DNA from: a virus
Length of the DNA stretch: 23,781 bases
Direction: 5' to 3' (one strand)
IMG/VR virus record: IMGVR_UViG_3300027719_000211
Span: 1-23,781 of that record
A program made the position numbers and the translations under genes. Positions 9,408 through 23,727 of this stretch are shown here, one piece after another (position 1 is the first letter of the stretch; every line of letters starts with the position of its first letter). The notes under the pieces were generated by a model. That model did no database searches, was not told the DNA's origin, and saw only the letters and a list, made by a program, of their open reading frames with translations.

Positions 9408-10343
9408 ATGAACGCACAAATCCAAAAACAAATTGAGGCTTCTGCTTTTAATCAAGCCATACACGAATGGCTTTCCGGTCAAACTACAGGACATCTTGGC
9501 GCTTACATGTACACAGAGGATCGAGATGATCATCGCTGGAAAGATGGGCATAGCGCAGAATCCTATTATCTTGGCCGCGATGACAAAGCAACTTTTGATC
9601 TTGCCGTAAAAGAGCTCAACCTTAATGTGAAACATTTTTTTGATCTTGGCCCTGGCGGAGAAGCCTCTGTCCGAGCCAAAAGCCTTCCTTTCATGAAGGC
9701 GTTGGGTGCAACAGAATATTTCCCCGTTGATTTGTCCCCGACACTAGCGAATGAAGCGCTGTCAACTATGAAGATGAACATTCCTGCTGTGAGTGGGAAA
9801 CCGTTAATCGCTGATTTTTTTGATAGTATCCCTGAGCACAGAAACAACTCCCTTCTTGCTATCGTGGGGGGAACCATTGGCAATTTTGAAACACATACAA
9901 GCAAAGCAGATTTGCTAACCCGATTGTCAGAAATCTTCTCCATCTACAGAAGTGCTGTTGGCGAAAACAGTTATTTTCTTGTTAGCTTTGATGCAAACAC
10001 GAATGAAAAGGAAATTGTGGGCGCTTATGATTGTCCTCAATTCGATTATCTAATTCGGGGCTGCGTTGAGCGCGCGATTGATACCAACGGTTTTGATTAT
10101 CATGTCAATTGGACGCCTGATAACTATCAGCTTGCCTTGGGATTTAAGTCCAATAGAGATCAAATAGTCTTTTTTGATGGTGCTCAATATGCAATCGAGG
10201 AAGGCGAATATCTGCCTGTCCTTAATTCCTATCGCTTCCCTGTTTCTTTTGTTGCCGAGGCTGCAAAAAAAGCAGGATGGGGTTATAAGAACACATGGTC
10301 GGCCACGGGGCGCACTCATTATATGTTATTTGCTGCTGTTTAG
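9408..10343 (+). CDS. EgtD-like SAM-dependent methyltransferase
   Basis: 311 aa, ATG at 9408 with AAGGATC upstream. Motifs run in the order of the EgtD (histidine N-alpha-methyltransferase) family: FDLGPGGEAS at about 78-87 (SAM loop), FPVDLSPT at about 105-112, GGTIGNF at 154-160, then FLVSFDANTN and the C-terminal VLNSYRFPVSFVAEAAKKAGW. In EgtD the region before the SYKF-like motif carries a Glu that holds the substrate amino group; here that position reads Leu (VLNS), so histidine may not be the substrate. Length is typical. It is co-transcribed with the HTH-sensor regulator and is equally AT-rich, suggesting a separately acquired cargo pair. Product and substrate unknown. Confidence 0.75.
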   Translation: MNAQIQKQIEASAFNQAIHEWLSGQTTGHLGAYMYTEDRDDHRWKDGHSAESYYLGRDDKATFDLAVKELNLNVKHFFDLGPGGEASVRAKSLPFMKALGATEYFPVDLSPTLANEALSTMKMNIPAVSGKPLIADFFDSIPEHRNNSLLAIVGGTIGNFETHTSKADLLTRLSEIFSIYRSAVGENSYFLVSFDANTNEKEIVGAYDCPQFDYLIRGCVERAIDTNGFDYHVNWTPDNYQLALGFKSNRDQIVFFDGAQYAIEEGEYLPVLNSYRFPVSFVAEAAKKAGWGYKNTWSATGRTHYMLFAAV

Positions 10344-12641: not shown

Positions 12642-13637
12642 TTGAATGTTCTCGATCTCTTCTCAGGCATCGGCGGATTCTCTCTCGGTCTCGAAGCCGC
12701 AGGAATGCGAACCGCCGCTTTTTGCGAGGTTGAACCTTATTGCCGCGCCGTCTTGCGAAAGCACTGGCCGGACGTGCCGATCCACAAGGACGTGCGCGCG
12801 CTCGACGGCGGGCAATACAGGGGCGCAGTCGAGCTTGTTTGCGGGGGATACCCTTGCCAGCCCTTCAGCATGGCAGGACGAAGGCGTGGCGAGGAAGATG
12901 AAAGACATCTCTGGCCGGAGATGTATCGCCTTGTTCGAGAGATCAGGCCGCGATGGGTCGTTGCCGAAAATGTTGCTGGACATATTAGCCTCGGCTTCGA
13001 CGAAGTTGCCTCATCGTTGGAAGCTGAAGGCTTCACCGTCTGGCCGTTTATTGTTCCAGCTTGCGCCGTTGGCGCGCCGCACAGACGAGACCGCGTGTGG
13101 ATTGTGGGCCATGCCCAACACAATGGACCATCTTCCGCAGCGGTCGCCGGAAGCACTCTTGCATCAAGCCCAGACAACGCGGAAAGGACGCACGAGGCCG
13201 GCCAATCTATGGGAGCAAGTCAATCCAACGACGATGGCCTTATGGCCAACGCCGGATGTTCGGGGATTCACGAACGATGGGGCGCTCCTCATGCTGAAGG
13301 AGAAATGCCACAGCCGCGAAGAATGGGCGGCGATGGCTTATCGGTCAGGATCGGCGCAGAAGCAGAAGCTTTGGCCGACGCCAAACGCCAGCGATTGTCG
13401 AGACAGGGGGAATCTGAGCCATCCTGTTGTGCAGCGCCGCGCTGCCAAGGGGAAGCAGCTTGGCTTGAGCATGGTCGTGTCGGAGAGCAGTGGTCAATTG
13501 AACCCAACGTGGGTCGAGTGGCTCATGGGATTCCCAACCGAGTGGAGCGTTTGCGCGCCCTCGGCAATGCCGTCGTACCGCAAATCCCGTTCCTCATCGG
13601 GCAAGCCATTTTGCGATACGAGCAGGAGATGAGCTGA
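12642..13637 (+). CDS. C5 cytosine DNA methyltransferase
   Basis: 331 aa from a TTG at 12642. All core motifs are present: motif I NVLDLFSGIGGFSLGLEAAG; E29 and D44-V45 in the next strands; motif IV with catalytic Cys in GGYPCQPFSMAG (about residues 68-79); ENVAG (motif VI); APHRRDRVWIVG (motif VIII); and ALGNAVVPQIP (motif X) near the end. It transfers a methyl group from SAM to cytosine C5 in a short DNA target, probably protecting element DNA from host nucleases; no partner restriction enzyme is next to it. The TTG start is forced by the family N-terminus. The gene contains a full-length second frame (12646-13632). It ends in TGATG overlap with the next gene. Confidence 0.93.
   Translation: MNVLDLFSGIGGFSLGLEAAGMRTAAFCEVEPYCRAVLRKHWPDVPIHKDVRALDGGQYRGAVELVCGGYPCQPFSMAGRRRGEEDERHLWPEMYRLVREIRPRWVVAENVAGHISLGFDEVASSLEAEGFTVWPFIVPACAVGAPHRRDRVWIVGHAQHNGPSSAAVAGSTLASSPDNAERTHEAGQSMGASQSNDDGLMANAGCSGIHERWGAPHAEGEMPQPRRMGGDGLSVRIGAEAEALADAKRQRLSRQGESEPSCCAAPRCQGEAAWLEHGRVGEQWSIEPNVGRVAHGIPNRVERLRALGNAVVPQIPFLIGQAILRYEQEMS
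12646..13632 (+). CDS. full-length second frame nested in the cytosine methyltransferase
   Basis: 328 aa in the same-strand +1 frame, starting at an ATG four bases after the methyltransferase TTG and ending five bases before its stop. The ATG has the better-spaced ribosome site (AGGGG, five bases away). The C-terminal half reads like a protein type I remember from phage and virome data: LWAMPNTMDHLPQRS, then RKGRTRPANLWEQVN, LWPTPNASDCRDRG and LNPTWVEWLMGFPTEW. The middle (LFAGDTLASPSAWQD, GRLLFQLAPLARRTDET) also matches that type. No catalytic motif known to me. It may be a genuine overprinted gene or a by-product of coding constraint; the recalled similarity is unverified. Confidence 0.45.
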   Translation: MFSISSQASADSLSVSKPQECEPPLFARLNLIAAPSCESTGRTCRSTRTCARSTAGNTGAQSSLFAGDTLASPSAWQDEGVARKMKDISGRRCIALFERSGRDGSLPKMLLDILASASTKLPHRWKLKASPSGRLLFQLAPLARRTDETACGLWAMPNTMDHLPQRSPEALLHQAQTTRKGRTRPANLWEQVNPTTMALWPTPDVRGFTNDGALLMLKEKCHSREEWAAMAYRSGSAQKQKLWPTPNASDCRDRGNLSHPVVQRRAAKGKQLGLSMVVSESSGQLNPTWVEWLMGFPTEWSVCAPSAMPSYRKSRSSSGKPFCDTSRR

Positions 13638-15659: not shown

Positions 15660-15872
15660 GTTGGACTTTTTACCTGTCCCCGCACTCGTCCACAAAGCTG
15701 CAACGTCCTGATCTTCAAGGTACTTCCAGCCCGAAAACCTATGCGGGCGGGCGTAGCGCGGGACATCTCTAGCGTTGGCATAGAAAAAGGGTGGACACTT
15801 TTCCAAGCGTGGACAGGTGGACAGCGTCCTTTCGTCCACCCGTAGTGGACAGCCAGAAAGTTGGGACTCCAT
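15645..15872 (-). CDS. possible small minus-strand gene opposite the late operon leader
   Basis: 75 aa from an ATG at 15872 with GGGAG about ten bases upstream; it overlaps the ParB-like start by two bases and runs into the terminator stem. The residues look protein-like rather than random (TCPRLEKCPPFFYANARDVP, then RPHRFSGWKYLEDQDVAALW, Lys-rich end) and codon choice is ordinary. The 5' half contains the GTGGACA repeats read as Cys-Pro codons. I do not recognise the family. It could equally be a chance frame in a regulatory region. Confidence 0.35.
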   Translation of the reverse strand: MESQLSGCPLRVDERTLSTCPRLEKCPPFFYANARDVPRYARPHRFSGWKYLEDQDVAALWTSAGTGKKSNKKAA

Positions 15873-15877
15873 GGACA
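15791..15877 (+). repeat. cluster of GTGGACA repeats before the ParB-like gene
   Basis: GTGGACA occurs exactly at 15791, 15809, 15817 and 15845, with ATGGACA at 15871 (the ParB-like start codon) and an inverted GTCCAC at 15834. Five related 7-mers in 87 bases is unusual and could be binding sites for a regulator or for one of the ParB-like proteins encoded next. The same bases are partly accounted for by the minus-strand frame. Confidence 0.5.
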
Positions 15878-16497
15878 CGAAACTCCCACGCATGGCGGAG
15901 CGGATTGAGTTTTGGCCCACAACAAAACTTCTGCCTTACGAAAAGAATCCGCGCCTTCACAGCGACGAGCAAATCAGCCAGATCGCCGCGAGCTTTATCC
16001 GCTTTGGCATGGTGATGCCAATTCTTGTCGATAGCACGGCGGGCGTGATTGCTGGGCACGGGCGGCTTGAAGCAGCCAAGCTCGTGGGTCTCAAGAAAGT
16101 TCCCGTTGTCATTCTCGATGGGTTGAGCGAGGAAGAAAAAAGCGCCTACGTCATCGCCGACAACAAGCTGGCCGAGAATGCGACATGGGATAAGGAACTT
16201 TTGGGCGAGCATGTCGAAGTCCTTATGGCCAAGGATTTTGATATGGGCGTTATCGGTTTTTCTAAAGACGAAATTGAGCGGCTTTTAAACGAAGCTCAAG
16301 ACGATTTAAGCGACGGGTTCGACGGTGGAGAAGCCAACGAACATCAAGAAGAGTCCGACACGCAATGTGTGGTTGGCTCCTACCGTCTCCCCATCTCCCG
16401 CGATGATTATCTGCGCTGGCACGATTCCATTCGCGACGCCGTTGGTTTTGAGAAAGATGCCATCAAAAAAGAAATTCGGAGGCGGTTGAAGCTATGA
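15871..16497 (+). CDS. ParB/Srx-fold protein (208 aa)
   Basis: The ATG at 15871 gives MDTKLPRMAERIEFWP, a start I associate with phage ParB-like proteins; the frame is open upstream to a GTG at 15817 within the repeats. The ParB domain is at residues about 10-100: KLLPYEKNPRLHSDEQISQI, then VDSTAGVIAGHGRLEAAKLVGL (GHGR at 62-65) and YVIADNKLAEN. The C-terminal part is acidic, then ends in a basic helix (DAIKKEIRRRLKL). In other phages this domain is often fused to a DNA methyltransferase; here the methyltransferase lies in the next gene. ParB-fold domains bind nucleotides and DNA and may act as nuclease or kinase. First gene of the late-type operon. Confidence 0.83.
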   Translation: MDTKLPRMAERIEFWPTTKLLPYEKNPRLHSDEQISQIAASFIRFGMVMPILVDSTAGVIAGHGRLEAAKLVGLKKVPVVILDGLSEEEKSAYVIADNKLAENATWDKELLGEHVEVLMAKDFDMGVIGFSKDEIERLLNEAQDDLSDGFDGGEANEHQEESDTQCVVGSYRLPISRDDYLRWHDSIRDAVGFEKDAIKKEIRRRLKL

Positions 16498-17996
16498 TCG
16501 AACTCGTTCCGATTACCGACGTGCGCCCCAGCACCTACAATCCCCGCAAGTCTGATCCCATTCGCCTCAAGATTATCGAACTATCCCTTCGCAAACTGGG
16601 CTGGCTTCTCCCCATTTATGCCGACAAAGACGGCGAAATCCTTTCCGGCCATCAACGGCACCTTGTCGCGACGCGCATGGGCATGAAGGAAGTGCCTGTC
16701 TGTTACATCCCGCGCATGACACTGGAAGAGCGTAAAGCCATTAACGTTGCGTTCAATCGCGGTACCAACGACATGCAAAACTCGGATGCGCCTGACACGC
16801 TGAAGCAGGCGCTTGAGCAGTGCAACGTTTTTGACATCGCCGCCGAGCTGCCCGATCAAACGGATGGCTGCCCTTGTTTGAATGTCGAGAAAGTTCCCCT
16901 CGCGCCGCTCTTAAAAGCCAACAAGGGCCGTTGGGTTCCGTATGCCCGTAACCTCGCGCAAATGCTTCGCAAGCGAGGCATTCAAATGCCGATCATTGCG
17001 ACCCGCGATCACAAAATCATCAACGGCATCGGGCGGCTGGAACTGGCGGCGGATCGCGGTGAAAGCCACGTCTCGGTGGTTTGGATTACGGACACGCAGG
17101 CCGAACTAGCACAAGCCATGTTGAACTTTCTCAGCATGGATTTCGACATCCACACCCGTTATGCCGACTTGCTCCGTTACAATTCTTTCCGGCGCGTCCG
17201 ACGTGTGCGCTCCGAATTAGGCTGGGGTTTCATCTTTGCCCATTACAAGAAAACCGCTGTCAAAGAATATGACGTGACCGAGCCGAAGAACGCCGAACAC
17301 TGGAAGCGGCTTTATGGGACTTCGGTGGTGGATTTTGGTGCAGGGCATTTGACTGAAACAAAAATCCTGCGGTCCATCGGTGTGCGCGTATCAGCCTTTG
17401 AGCCTTTTCGTATCGGTGACACGGATGAAATCGACAAGGCAGAGAGCCTGCGCGTCGCGCGCGCCTTTCTGGCGGACGTTGCGGCGGGCGTGAAATACGA
17501 CTCTGTTTTTATCTCCTCGGTTCTCAATAGCGTCCCCTTCCGCGAAGACCGCGAACATATCGCCTGCCTGTGCGCCGCGCTTTGCTGCCCTAGGACGCGG
17601 CTTTATGCAGCAGCTTCCTCGCGGGCGCATTCCAACTGGCGCAACGTCGCTGGCGGCAATCAAATCTCCGAACGTCGCCTCAAAGAATGTATATTTCGGC
17701 TGGAATATGAAGGCGGGATCACGTTGGGTGACTTTCAAGCCAAGCCGAAGGTTCAGAAGTATCATTCGCAGAAAGAGTTTTACGAACTCTTCAGTCCGTT
17801 CTTTGAGCGTGTGCAAGTCGAAGACAAAGCCAACAACGTCACAGCAATTTGCGGTAATCCGTTGCCCGTTGACGCGAAGAAACTAAAAGCAGCTATCGCT
17901 TTTGAGTTTGATTTACCGTATCCTGATGGCAGCCGCATGGGGTTGGTTGACGAAGCCGTCGCTGCCTATGAAAAGCGGTTAGGCATGACGTTATGA
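16494..17996 (+). CDS. double ParB-like domain fused to a SAM methyltransferase
   Basis: 500 aa, ATGA overlap with the previous gene. ParB-like domain 1 is at residues about 1-95 (ITDVRPSTYNPRKSD, GEILSGHQRHLVATRMG). A second, more divergent one is at about 133-200 (VPLAPLLKANKGRWVPYARN, HKIINGIGRLELAADRG). The region 210-260 is conserved-looking and aromatic/basic (NFLSMDFDIHTRYADLLRYN). A class I methyltransferase domain follows at about 270-440: SVVDFGAGHLTETKILRSIG (SAM loop), VSAFEPF (acidic residue after strand 2) and FISSVLNSVPF (strand 4). No N6A-type DPPY motif is present, so the target is not obviously adenine. A role in modifying DNA or a nucleotide is inferred from the ParB domains and neighbours. 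Confidence 0.82.
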   Translation: MIELVPITDVRPSTYNPRKSDPIRLKIIELSLRKLGWLLPIYADKDGEILSGHQRHLVATRMGMKEVPVCYIPRMTLEERKAINVAFNRGTNDMQNSDAPDTLKQALEQCNVFDIAAELPDQTDGCPCLNVEKVPLAPLLKANKGRWVPYARNLAQMLRKRGIQMPIIATRDHKIINGIGRLELAADRGESHVSVVWITDTQAELAQAMLNFLSMDFDIHTRYADLLRYNSFRRVRRVRSELGWGFIFAHYKKTAVKEYDVTEPKNAEHWKRLYGTSVVDFGAGHLTETKILRSIGVRVSAFEPFRIGDTDEIDKAESLRVARAFLADVAAGVKYDSVFISSVLNSVPFREDREHIACLCAALCCPRTRLYAAASSRAHSNWRNVAGGNQISERRLKECIFRLEYEGGITLGDFQAKPKVQKYHSQKEFYELFSPFFERVQVEDKANNVTAICGNPLPVDAKKLKAAIAFEFDLPYPDGSRMGLVDEAVAAYEKRLGMTL

Positions 17997-21753: not shown

Positions 21754-21768
21754 TTTTGTGGATGTTTG

Positions 21769-21777
21769 TGTTATAAT
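21769..21777 (+). promoter_or_regulatory. extended -10 promoter for the recombinase genes
   Basis: TG-T-TATAAT is a perfect -10 hexamer with the TG extension. No good -35 lies at the right distance, as expected for extended -10 promoters. Transcription would begin near 21785, which places the ATG at 21812 in the message and excludes the earlier in-frame starts at 21758 and 21776. Confidence 0.65.
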
Positions 21778-21811
21778 GGTGCGGGCAACGAAACGGATTA
21801 AAGTGAGAAAA

Positions 21812-22162
21812 ATGCCTATTCAAAGCGTGATTTATTGCCACACGGCCTGCGGCCCACAAGAAGGCCTAGACGTAGAGGCACAAAAACAGGAACGATTTTG
21901 CCGCGACTATGCGGTGGCGCACGGATGCGGGGTTATCGAAGTTTTTTCCGACTCTGGCGTGTCAGGTCTTTCAGAAAACAGATCGGGCTTTAATGCATTA
22001 CTGGATTTTCTGCACCAACAACGAAAACCGTTTGCTGTCTTGGTTGCTTCGCGGGATAGGCTCGCGCGTGATCTTGATTTGCTTCTGATATTGGAGAGAA
22101 AGCTCTCTGATTTATGTGCGCCCCTTGTTTTCGTAAATGAGGTGTATCAAAAGGTCGCATGA
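21812..22162 (+). CDS. catalytically dead serine-recombinase domain (116 aa)
   Basis: The whole protein is one resolvase-type catalytic domain: SVIYCHTACGPQEGLDVEAQ, VIEVFSDSGVSGLSENRSGF, AVLVASRDRLARDLDLLL. Aligned with the active recombinase that follows (TYCRVSSAKQVKEGHGLSSQ) the nucleophile Ser12 is Ala and the neighbouring Arg10 is His, while the later SRDRLAR arginines remain. It cannot cleave DNA by the known mechanism. It lacks the DNA-binding domains of large recombinases. The stop overlaps the active gene start (ATGA), so the two are probably made in a fixed ratio and may form mixed oligomers. A regulatory subunit is the likeliest role, by inference. Confidence 0.82.
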   Translation: MPIQSVIYCHTACGPQEGLDVEAQKQERFCRDYAVAHGCGVIEVFSDSGVSGLSENRSGFNALLDFLHQQRKPFAVLVASRDRLARDLDLLLILERKLSDLCAPLVFVNEVYQKVA

Positions 22163-23727
22163 TTAAATTTGCTGTCACTTATTGCCGTGTTTCCAGTGCC
22201 AAACAGGTCAAAGAAGGCCACGGCCTAAGTTCGCAAGAAACGCGCTGCCGCGAATATGCAAAGCATAAAGGATATGAAGTCATCGAAACATTTTTCGATG
22301 AAGGCATTTCAGGCAGCCTTATCGAACGCCCCGGCATGCAGTCCATGTTGAGGTTTCTGCGTAAAAGAAAAGGCGAAATTATCGCCGTCATCATCGATGA
22401 CATCAGCCGTCTTGCACGTGGACTTGAAGCGCATCTGGATTTACGAACTTCAATCGGTGCCGCTGGCGGTAAACTGGAATCCCCTTCTATTGAGTTTGGC
22501 GAAGATTCCGACAGCATCCTTGTTGAGAATCTTCTGGCCAGCGTCTCGCAACACCAACGGCAAAAGAACGCCGAGCAGGTCAAGAATCGTATGCGGGCGC
22601 GCGTAATGAACGGTTACTGGACAGGAAAAGCTCCATATGGTTATCGCTACAAGTCCATGCCTAACCACGGCAAACTATTGGTTCGTGATGAGCCGCTGGC
22701 TTCAATCGTGCAGGAAGCTTTGGAAGGCTATGCTTGTGGGCGATTTGAAACACGACCGGAGATAAAATACTTTCTGGAAAGCCATGCCGTCTTTCCCAGA
22801 GGACATAATGGGCGAGTACATTATCAGCGCGTTGACGACATGCTCAACAATGCTCTGTACGCAGGATATGTTCATTTTCCACGATGGGATGTTCACTTCC
22901 AACCGGGAAAACACGAAGCCATAATCAGCCTTGAAACGTGGCAAAAGATCCAAGACCGCTTGAAGGGTCAGGCCAAGGCACCAGCCCGCGTGGATGTACA
23001 TGATGACTTTCCTCTGCGCGGATTTGTGATCTGCGCTTGCTGCGGCCAGCCTATGACCGCTTGCTGGTCGCGAGGCAGGAAGAAGGCTTATCCCTATTAC
23101 CTTTGCCAAACGAAGGGGTGTTCCGAATACAAAAAATCTGTCCGCAAGGAGAAAATGGAAACCGAGTTTGAAATCCTTTTGAAAAGCCTGTGTCCATCTG
23201 AAGACATGTTCAAAATAGCTGTTGAAGCACTCAAGGATCATTGGCGGGAGGGGGAGAAGAACTTGGGACAGGAATCCATGCTCGCGAAAAAGGAACTGGC
23301 AGAAGTTGAAAAGAAGGTCGGGCAACTCATGGATCGGATTATCGCGACGGACTCGCCCAGCGTGATCAAGGCCTATGAAGAGCACATCAAAAATCTTGAG
23401 ATTAGGAAGGCGGGATTAGCCGAGATTACGAAGAATTGCGGCAGGCCGTTAAAGCCGTTCGACCAAACTTATCGAACCGCCCTTGAATTCCTCCGAAACC
23501 CGCAGAAACTCTGGGTTTCTGAGCGTATCGAGGACAAGAGAATTGTGCTGAAACTGGTTTTTGCGAAGCCTTTGGAATATTGCCAAAATGGCGGTTATCG
23601 AACCGCTCTAACTTCTTGTCCCTTCACACTTTTTCAGGGTTTTAGTAGCCCTAAGAAAGTTTTGGTGGAGCCAAGGGGGATCGAACCCCTGACCTCAACA
23701 ATGCCATTGTTGCGCTCTCCCAGCTGA
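22159..23727 (+). CDS. large serine recombinase (integrase)
   Basis: 522 aa. The catalytic domain is at about 1-150: YCRVSSAKQ with nucleophile Ser12, then FFDEGISGSLIERPGM and IIDDISRLARG. The recombinase domain is at about 155-270 (GKAPYGYRYKSMPNHGKLLV). A zinc ribbon is at about 290-325 (CACCGQPM...YYLCQTKGC), followed by a coiled coil at about 365-420. It integrates or excises the element between attP and attB. The last 20 residues (VEPRGIEPLTST...) are the antisense translation of the tRNA-Ala gene, and the stop lies within the tRNA D-arm region, so the C-terminal tail is supplied by the target site. It follows the dead paralogue by ATGA overlap. Confidence 0.93.
   Translation: MIKFAVTYCRVSSAKQVKEGHGLSSQETRCREYAKHKGYEVIETFFDEGISGSLIERPGMQSMLRFLRKRKGEIIAVIIDDISRLARGLEAHLDLRTSIGAAGGKLESPSIEFGEDSDSILVENLLASVSQHQRQKNAEQVKNRMRARVMNGYWTGKAPYGYRYKSMPNHGKLLVRDEPLASIVQEALEGYACGRFETRPEIKYFLESHAVFPRGHNGRVHYQRVDDMLNNALYAGYVHFPRWDVHFQPGKHEAIISLETWQKIQDRLKGQAKAPARVDVHDDFPLRGFVICACCGQPMTACWSRGRKKAYPYYLCQTKGCSEYKKSVRKEKMETEFEILLKSLCPSEDMFKIAVEALKDHWREGEKNLGQESMLAKKELAEVEKKVGQLMDRIIATDSPSVIKAYEEHIKNLEIRKAGLAEITKNCGRPLKPFDQTYRTALEFLRNPQKLWVSERIEDKRIVLKLVFAKPLEYCQNGGYRTALTSCPFTLFQGFSSPKKVLVEPRGIEPLTSTMPLLRSPS
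23663..23727. other. probable attachment site at the tRNA 3' end
   Basis: The element's integrase gene runs directly into the 3' part of an intact tRNA gene, the usual layout when an element uses a tRNA as attB and restores its 3' end on integration. The exact core cannot be fixed without the other end; it should be a direct repeat of part of this tRNA 3' segment to the left of this window. Confidence 0.7.

Follow-up and report, generated by a model that had tools for sequence, protein, structure and literature searches.

The window analysed here comprises positions 1 to 23,781 of virus record IMGVR_UViG_3300027719_000211 (23,781 nucleotides), within which two long reading frames, offset by +1 on the same strand, lie open over almost the same nucleotides: one runs from a TTG at 12642 to 13637 (331 aa) and the other from an ATG at 12646 to 13632 (328 aa). 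This pairing had been pointed out in an earlier, sequence-only reading and is present as described, and the DNA of the locus is identical in a longer virus contig of 51,650 bases (L168). In this study, we refer to the methyltransferase frame (frame 1) as alpha and to the +1-frame open reading frame (ORF; frame 2) as beta. The features of the locus are as follows.

12642–13637, + strand: alpha, the C5 cytosine methyltransferase frame (frame 1), starting at TTG, with motifs I–VIII and X and without IX (PF00145, PHROG_363, hhalign)
12646–12825, + strand: upstream extension of frame 2 from ATG 12646, open, with no frame-2 selection seen (0.3 stops expected; frame-2 mean z 0.59)
12654–12683, + strand: alpha motif I (DLFSGIGGFS)
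12826–13632, + strand: beta, nested +1-frame ORF, approximate conserved extent; putative target-recognition and motif IX subunit (PHROG_1008, aligned homologues, selection tests)
12835–12837, + strand: candidate beta start TTG, with AGGGG about 11 nt upstream
12843–12869, + strand: alpha motif IV with the catalytic PCQ (GGYPCQPFS)
12898–12900, + strand: candidate beta start ATG, with GAGGAAG just upstream
13071–13094, + strand: alpha motif VIII region (GAPHRRDR), overlapping the end of FQLAPLARRTDET in beta
13102–13128, + strand: repeat-like block LWAMPNTMD in beta
13240–13266, + strand: LWPTP block in beta (LWPTPDVRG)
13369–13395, + strand: LWPTP block in beta (LWPTPNASD)
13498–13536, + strand: beta motif IX (LNPTWVEWLMGFP), where alpha reads EPNVGRVAHGIPN; its counterpart is in frame in single-chain methyltransferases (canonical form LTPRECARLMGFDDDF)
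13560–13583, + strand: alpha motif X (LGNAVVPQ), at which the doubly constrained stretch ends

Around the locus lie a gpA-type terminase, ParB-like genes and recombinases. Elsewhere on the + strand of the window, we observed a histidine-specific SAM-dependent methyltransferase at 9408–10343 (PF10017, 5e-28), an unusual cargo for a phage-like record, two adjoining ParB_N-like genes at 15817–17996, the second of them below the Pfam cut-off, and two overlapping tandem resolvase-like ORFs at 21758–23727, one short and the other a full-length large serine recombinase.

Alpha carries the features of a C5 methyltransferase, with motif I, the PCQ of motif IV, the ENV of motif VI and motif VIII standing as invariant columns. 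It matches PF00145 (4.2e-41), with the match limited to profile positions 1–169 of 324, as well as PHROG_363, while hhalign against canonical methyltransferases (5e-34) covers motifs I–VIII only (columns 1–166). Between the recognition region and motif X, where a single-chain enzyme holds motif IX, alpha reads EPNVGRVAHGIPN. Canonical C5 methyltransferases of the same genomes match PF00145 from 1 to approximately 323 and have motif IX in frame (for example, RRLTPRECARLMGFDDDF) ahead of the motif X GNSV. The methyltransferase frame had been credited with all family motifs; this holds for I–VIII and for X, but motif IX is found in frame 2 instead.

The openness of frame 2 in the window sequence taken alone is weak evidence for a gene. 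Between PCQ and GNA there are 0 frame-2 stops where 1.5 are expected (p ~0.13), and over the first 70 frame-2 codons only 0.3 stops would be expected by chance. Frame 2 might then be no gene, lying open and looking conserved through a conserved methyltransferase and a codon usage that yields few +1 stops; the unremarkable openness of the window would fit such an account, as would the conserved alpha residues that dictate some of the frame-2 residues. Among homologues the counts are of a different order. The 149 loci found via frame 2 hold 104 frame-2 stops against 535 expected from synonymous-codon shuffles of alpha that keep its protein and codon usage, while their third frame holds 1,768 against 1,789. 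As a guard against selection bias, 80 loci were fetched by alpha alignment alone, and in the 76 that could be scored there is not one frame-2 stop between PCQ (motif IV) and motif IX, against 240 expected from the alpha-preserving shuffles; the third frame of these loci has 1,072 stops against 1,054 expected. Motif IX is recognizable in frame 2 of 71 of the 76, and alpha is open throughout in 175 of 179 loci with a frame-2 match, with a median of 13 stops in the third frame.

Substitutions in 43 independent homologue pairs, counted by frame-1 codon position 1/2/3, indicate where along the gene each frame is held. The N-terminal part (198/94/827) and the stretch after motif X (133/98/350) display the ordinary single-frame pattern of frame 1. 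The counts are 328/149/562 from PCQ to VIII and 1839/1060/1271 from VIII to X, and single-change codons in the latter interval are synonymous or nonsynonymous at 373/1040 in frame 1 and 900/490 in frame 2. Since changes after VIII fall mostly at the silent position of frame 2, it is frame 2 that is the main selected frame from VIII to X. The same is visible between the window and one homologous locus (L012), which from VIII to GNA differ at 0.30/0.06/0.06 per codon, with an identity of 0.68 in frame 1 and 0.89 in frame 2, and which before codon 54 follow an ordinary frame-1 pattern (identity 0.83 in frame 1, 0.57 in frame 2).

Between diverged homologues, frame-2 similarity exceeds that of synonymous shuffles only within the beta interval, with mean z values of 0.59 before PCQ, 3.5 from PCQ to VIII, 3.8 from VIII to IX, 4.25 from IX to GNA and −0.10 after GNA. 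The third frame rises there too (z ~2–3), as expected where shared bases are held. In the reciprocal test, alpha too is retained more than frame 2 would require, with the smallest excess after VIII (z 7.2, 9.0, 3.3 and 3.2). The codon-level tests that had been proposed, in which constraint on the methyltransferase frame alone would have counted against a second gene, thus gave the reverse, with frame 2 the more constrained after VIII. Dual coding across the full 330 codons is not supported: frame-2 constraint starts approximately 60–85 codons in and ends near motif X, and neither the first 60 or so codons nor the stretch past motif X shows any. The selection signal separates the two genes cleanly along the sequence, and frame 2 is a real, selected gene. 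Chance openness of frame 2 is refuted by the substitution pattern together with the shuffle tests. For frame 2 to be no gene is extremely improbable, given the 240 shuffled stops of which none is seen, a similarity above shuffles that is confined to the beta interval and absent from both ends of the gene, post-VIII substitutions mostly at frame 2's third position, and the survival of frame 2 in loci where alpha is closed.

As to what beta is, it matches PHROG_1008 (1.1e-25), is conserved across 31 and 114 aligned homologues and ends in LNPTWVEWLMGFPxxW. Against six canonical methyltransferases it aligns in register at motif IX, though not significantly (E 0.31); an alignment that includes two motif-X-carrying members reaches E 1.1e-3. 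The stronger connection runs through single-frame relatives, mostly actinobacterial, which hold motifs I–VIII, LPTP blocks, L[NS]PxFxEWMMGLPxGW and GNGVVPQ all in one frame. hhalign of beta (with its LNPTWVEWLMGFP) against these relatives gives 97.6% probability and E 4.1e-12 over two LPTP blocks and motif IX, and with the relatives as intermediates beta is tied to motif IX of the C5 methyltransferases. Their profile matches M.HhaI over motifs I–VIII (5e-29), and a second stretch falls in register at M.HhaI 274–308 without reaching significance. AlphaFold models one of them confidently for motifs I–VIII and with a predicted local distance score (pLDDT) of approximately 90 for IX–X, leaving the LPTP blocks disordered (pLDDT 25–36), and a Foldseek search with this model retrieves M.HhaI along the entire chain. 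For beta, the small polypeptide, motif IX is identified by homology to the single-frame relatives and by its position before motif X in two loci where beta itself extends that far (L054 and L139).

Beta modelled alone is of low confidence (pLDDT 67, pTM 0.30); an obligate subunit might not fold alone. The beta profile found no match in the PDB, and beta searched against NCBIfam and Pfam returned nothing relevant. Beta could be a real protein with a separate function, for instance in regulation or anti-restriction, its overlap with the methyltransferase being incidental. Large overprinted genes are often functionally unrelated to their hosts, and no counterpart was found for the N-terminal domain of beta; yet its C-terminal half is homologous to the recognition and motif IX segment of single-chain methyltransferases, and what alpha lacks in the aligned members is exactly motif IX. 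We regard a separate function as very unlikely.

Where beta begins in the window is less sharply indicated. Across the family, 102 of 216 loci (44.9 expected) have in frame 2 an ATG that follows a Shine–Dalgarno-like run and is situated between 3 and 26 codons ahead of PCQ, mostly 13–19 (for example, GTAAAGGAGTTAGCAAATG). The window has no ATG with such a run in that interval, and none of its internal codons stands out as a start backed by a good ribosome site; the candidates are ATG 12646, TTG 12835 and ATG 12898. The first of these, if used in the window and its closest relatives, would extend the overlap over nearly the whole gene, a sub-question compatible with a two-polypeptide enzyme. 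Its ribosome site is better placed than that of TTG 12642, and in seven other loci (L012, L217, L009, L011, L087, L114 and L121) an ATG also lies four bases past the alpha start with frame 2 open. The early openness in those loci is at chance level (0.2–0.8 stops expected), however, and the window and L012 differ before codon 54 in the ordinary frame-1 manner noted above, which leaves a start at ATG 12646 doubtful. The earlier remark on the ribosome site stands as a description of the sequence (TAGGGGATTGAATG, a purine run approximately 1 nt from the TTG and 5 nt from the ATG).

The motifs are distributed between the frames in several ways. Our census, whose counts reflect how the loci were fetched and are not frequencies, comprises 201 loci in which frame 2 carries IX and frame 1 carries X (plus approximately 9 minor variants), 31 in which frame 1 carries both and 5 in which both lie in frame 2, alpha having closed ahead of them (L054, L139, L302, L349 and L375). 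A motif IX was not recognized in 38 loci, and 25 lacked a nearby motif X. The matched stretch contains 9 alpha stops in L054 and 19 in L139, and in both loci beta continues to motif X. In all five, alpha ends soon after VIII, overlapping beta, a split resembling that of M.AquI. Where IX and X are both in frame 1, the LPTP blocks are in frame 1 for some members and in frame 2 for others; six loci (L309:1501–3009, L312:1501–2727, L330, L336, L369 and L385) have IX and X in the methyltransferase frame with the LPTP blocks in +1, as if only the recognition blocks had moved to, or stayed in, the second frame. Past frame switching, raised in the sequence-only reading as a possible origin of the second-frame family, is borne out by this census and by the single-frame relatives, in that parts have been exchanged between frames in the history of the family. 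As a separate observation, a related insertion in L014 (alpha and beta) and in L139 falls between alpha's motifs VI and VIII; it is read in both frames and hence was kept open in both.

These layouts also bear on whether beta is a separate product, or whether a programmed +1 frameshift joins the N-terminal part of alpha to the frame-2 segment as an alternative recognition domain. The single-frame relatives show exactly that order of parts, and one shift in L054, L139 or L302 would give a complete enzyme. Frame-2 constraint, however, begins at PCQ, well ahead of any join that would be needed; internal ATGs with a Shine–Dalgarno-like run are enriched; and in the common layout motif X lies in frame 1, so a single shift would lose it. 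We consider such a frameshift quite unlikely.

A protein search with frame 2 had been suggested as a check and recovers a conserved overprinted gene at loci that also have an intact methyltransferase frame. Among phage records, a translated search found 142 matches; the eight inspected all show both frames open across the conserved part, with the same +1 offset. One Paenibacillus phage record names the frame-2 gene ‘g50 internal gene’, another phage record labels each of the two frames a methyltransferase and in others the locus appears as a single gene; most annotations give only one of the two proteins. Frame 2 occurs in at least 585 IMG/VR candidates and in 230 candidates among bacterial genomes, including Alphaproteobacteria, Bacillota, Bacteroidota, Treponema, Acidobacteria, Synergistaceae, Elusimicrobia, Chlorobiota, Opitutae, Actinoplanes and Myxococcales. 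One Roseovarius chromosome (a metagenome-assembled genome, OX638333.1) carries five copies of the locus with equal match scores (L025, L026, L028, L029 and L030), which suggests several related prophages or an assembly repeat. Four phage protein families match beta (PHROG_1008, PHROG_31772, PHROG_26627 and PHROG_27243), the first two labelled ‘DNA methyltransferase’ and the others ‘unknown function’; that label was probably borrowed from the overlapping frame, beta being without catalytic motifs. The four entries describe neither the mechanism nor the overlap, and a search of mostly open-access literature found no description of the nested gene in phages.

We propose that the locus encodes a C5 methyltransferase made of two polypeptides and arranged as in M.EcoHK31I, the beta gene lying inside that of alpha, a reading based on sequence comparison to which we assign a probability of about 0.87. 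Alpha (12642–13637) would supply the AdoMet-binding and catalytic large domain (motifs I–VIII) and the closing motif X, and beta (approximately 12826–13632) the segment that lies between VIII and X in single-chain enzymes, namely the variable LWPTP-block region and motif IX, which would amount to the target-recognition small domain or its core. By analogy with the alpha and beta subunits of M.EcoHK31I, the two may associate into an active enzyme, with beta translated from its own internal start and setting the sequence recognized; the enzyme would probably shield phage DNA from host restriction. Direct support comes from both frames being intact and selected, the motif split, the homology of beta and its persistence where alpha is closed.

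For the family as a whole, the balance tips modestly towards a broader statement: a very large C5 family keeps its DNA-recognition part in the second frame of its own catalytic gene, with frame 2 the mainly selected frame there, and has moved recognition blocks, IX and X between frames. The arrangements meant are I–VIII and X with IX apart; I–VIII with IX and X apart; everything in one frame; and frame 2 holding the recognition blocks while IX is in frame 1. If this is true, what is annotated in these enzymes as ‘target recognition regions’ would for the most part be a by-product reading, and swapping beta could exchange recognition. When the specificity of these phage methyltransferases is predicted from the annotated frame, the letters used past motif VIII are probably the wrong ones, and recoded or codon-optimized cloning of the annotated gene would destroy beta, probably giving a dead enzyme. 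A split, nested methyltransferase was previously known from few enzymes, and the layout is conserved here in hundreds of virus contigs and in the genomes of a dozen or more bacterial groups; this breadth, with the clean selection signal, makes the family a strong natural example of dual coding that is both long and ancient.

The small-subunit gene of M.EcoHK31I is said to be nested in the large one in another frame (reportedly described by Lee, Kam and Shaw in 1995), and the small gene of the window is likewise nested in its large one in another frame. M.EcoHK31I is a two-polypeptide enzyme acting on YGGCCR, whose larger subunit has motifs I–VIII and X and whose smaller subunit has IX, with the predicted target-recognition domain placed in the large subunit (PMC3404938). 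Alpha of the window likewise has I–VIII and X and beta has IX, a likeness of motif layout; unlike in M.EcoHK31I, selection after VIII in this family falls mainly on beta. In M.AquI, motifs I–VIII are in one polypeptide and IX–X in the other (PMC3404938), a split also seen in L054, L139 and L302, where IX and X are in the second polypeptide; alpha of the window differs in keeping motif X, and for most of their length the window's two genes overlap. Single-chain C5 methyltransferases with LPTP blocks (L303, L308, L316 and L345; mostly actinobacterial) have the same parts in the same order as alpha and beta, all in one frame, unlike the window. A hidden other-frame gene in a phage methylase is also known from phage ShiLan, whose methylase gene conceals an out-of-frame HNH endonuclease (PMC11855218); that gene is a mobile insertion for a homing nuclease and, unlike beta, not a part of the enzyme. 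Three features go further than the M.EcoHK31I case: the arrangement is widespread, frame 2 dominates after motif VIII, and parts have moved between frames.
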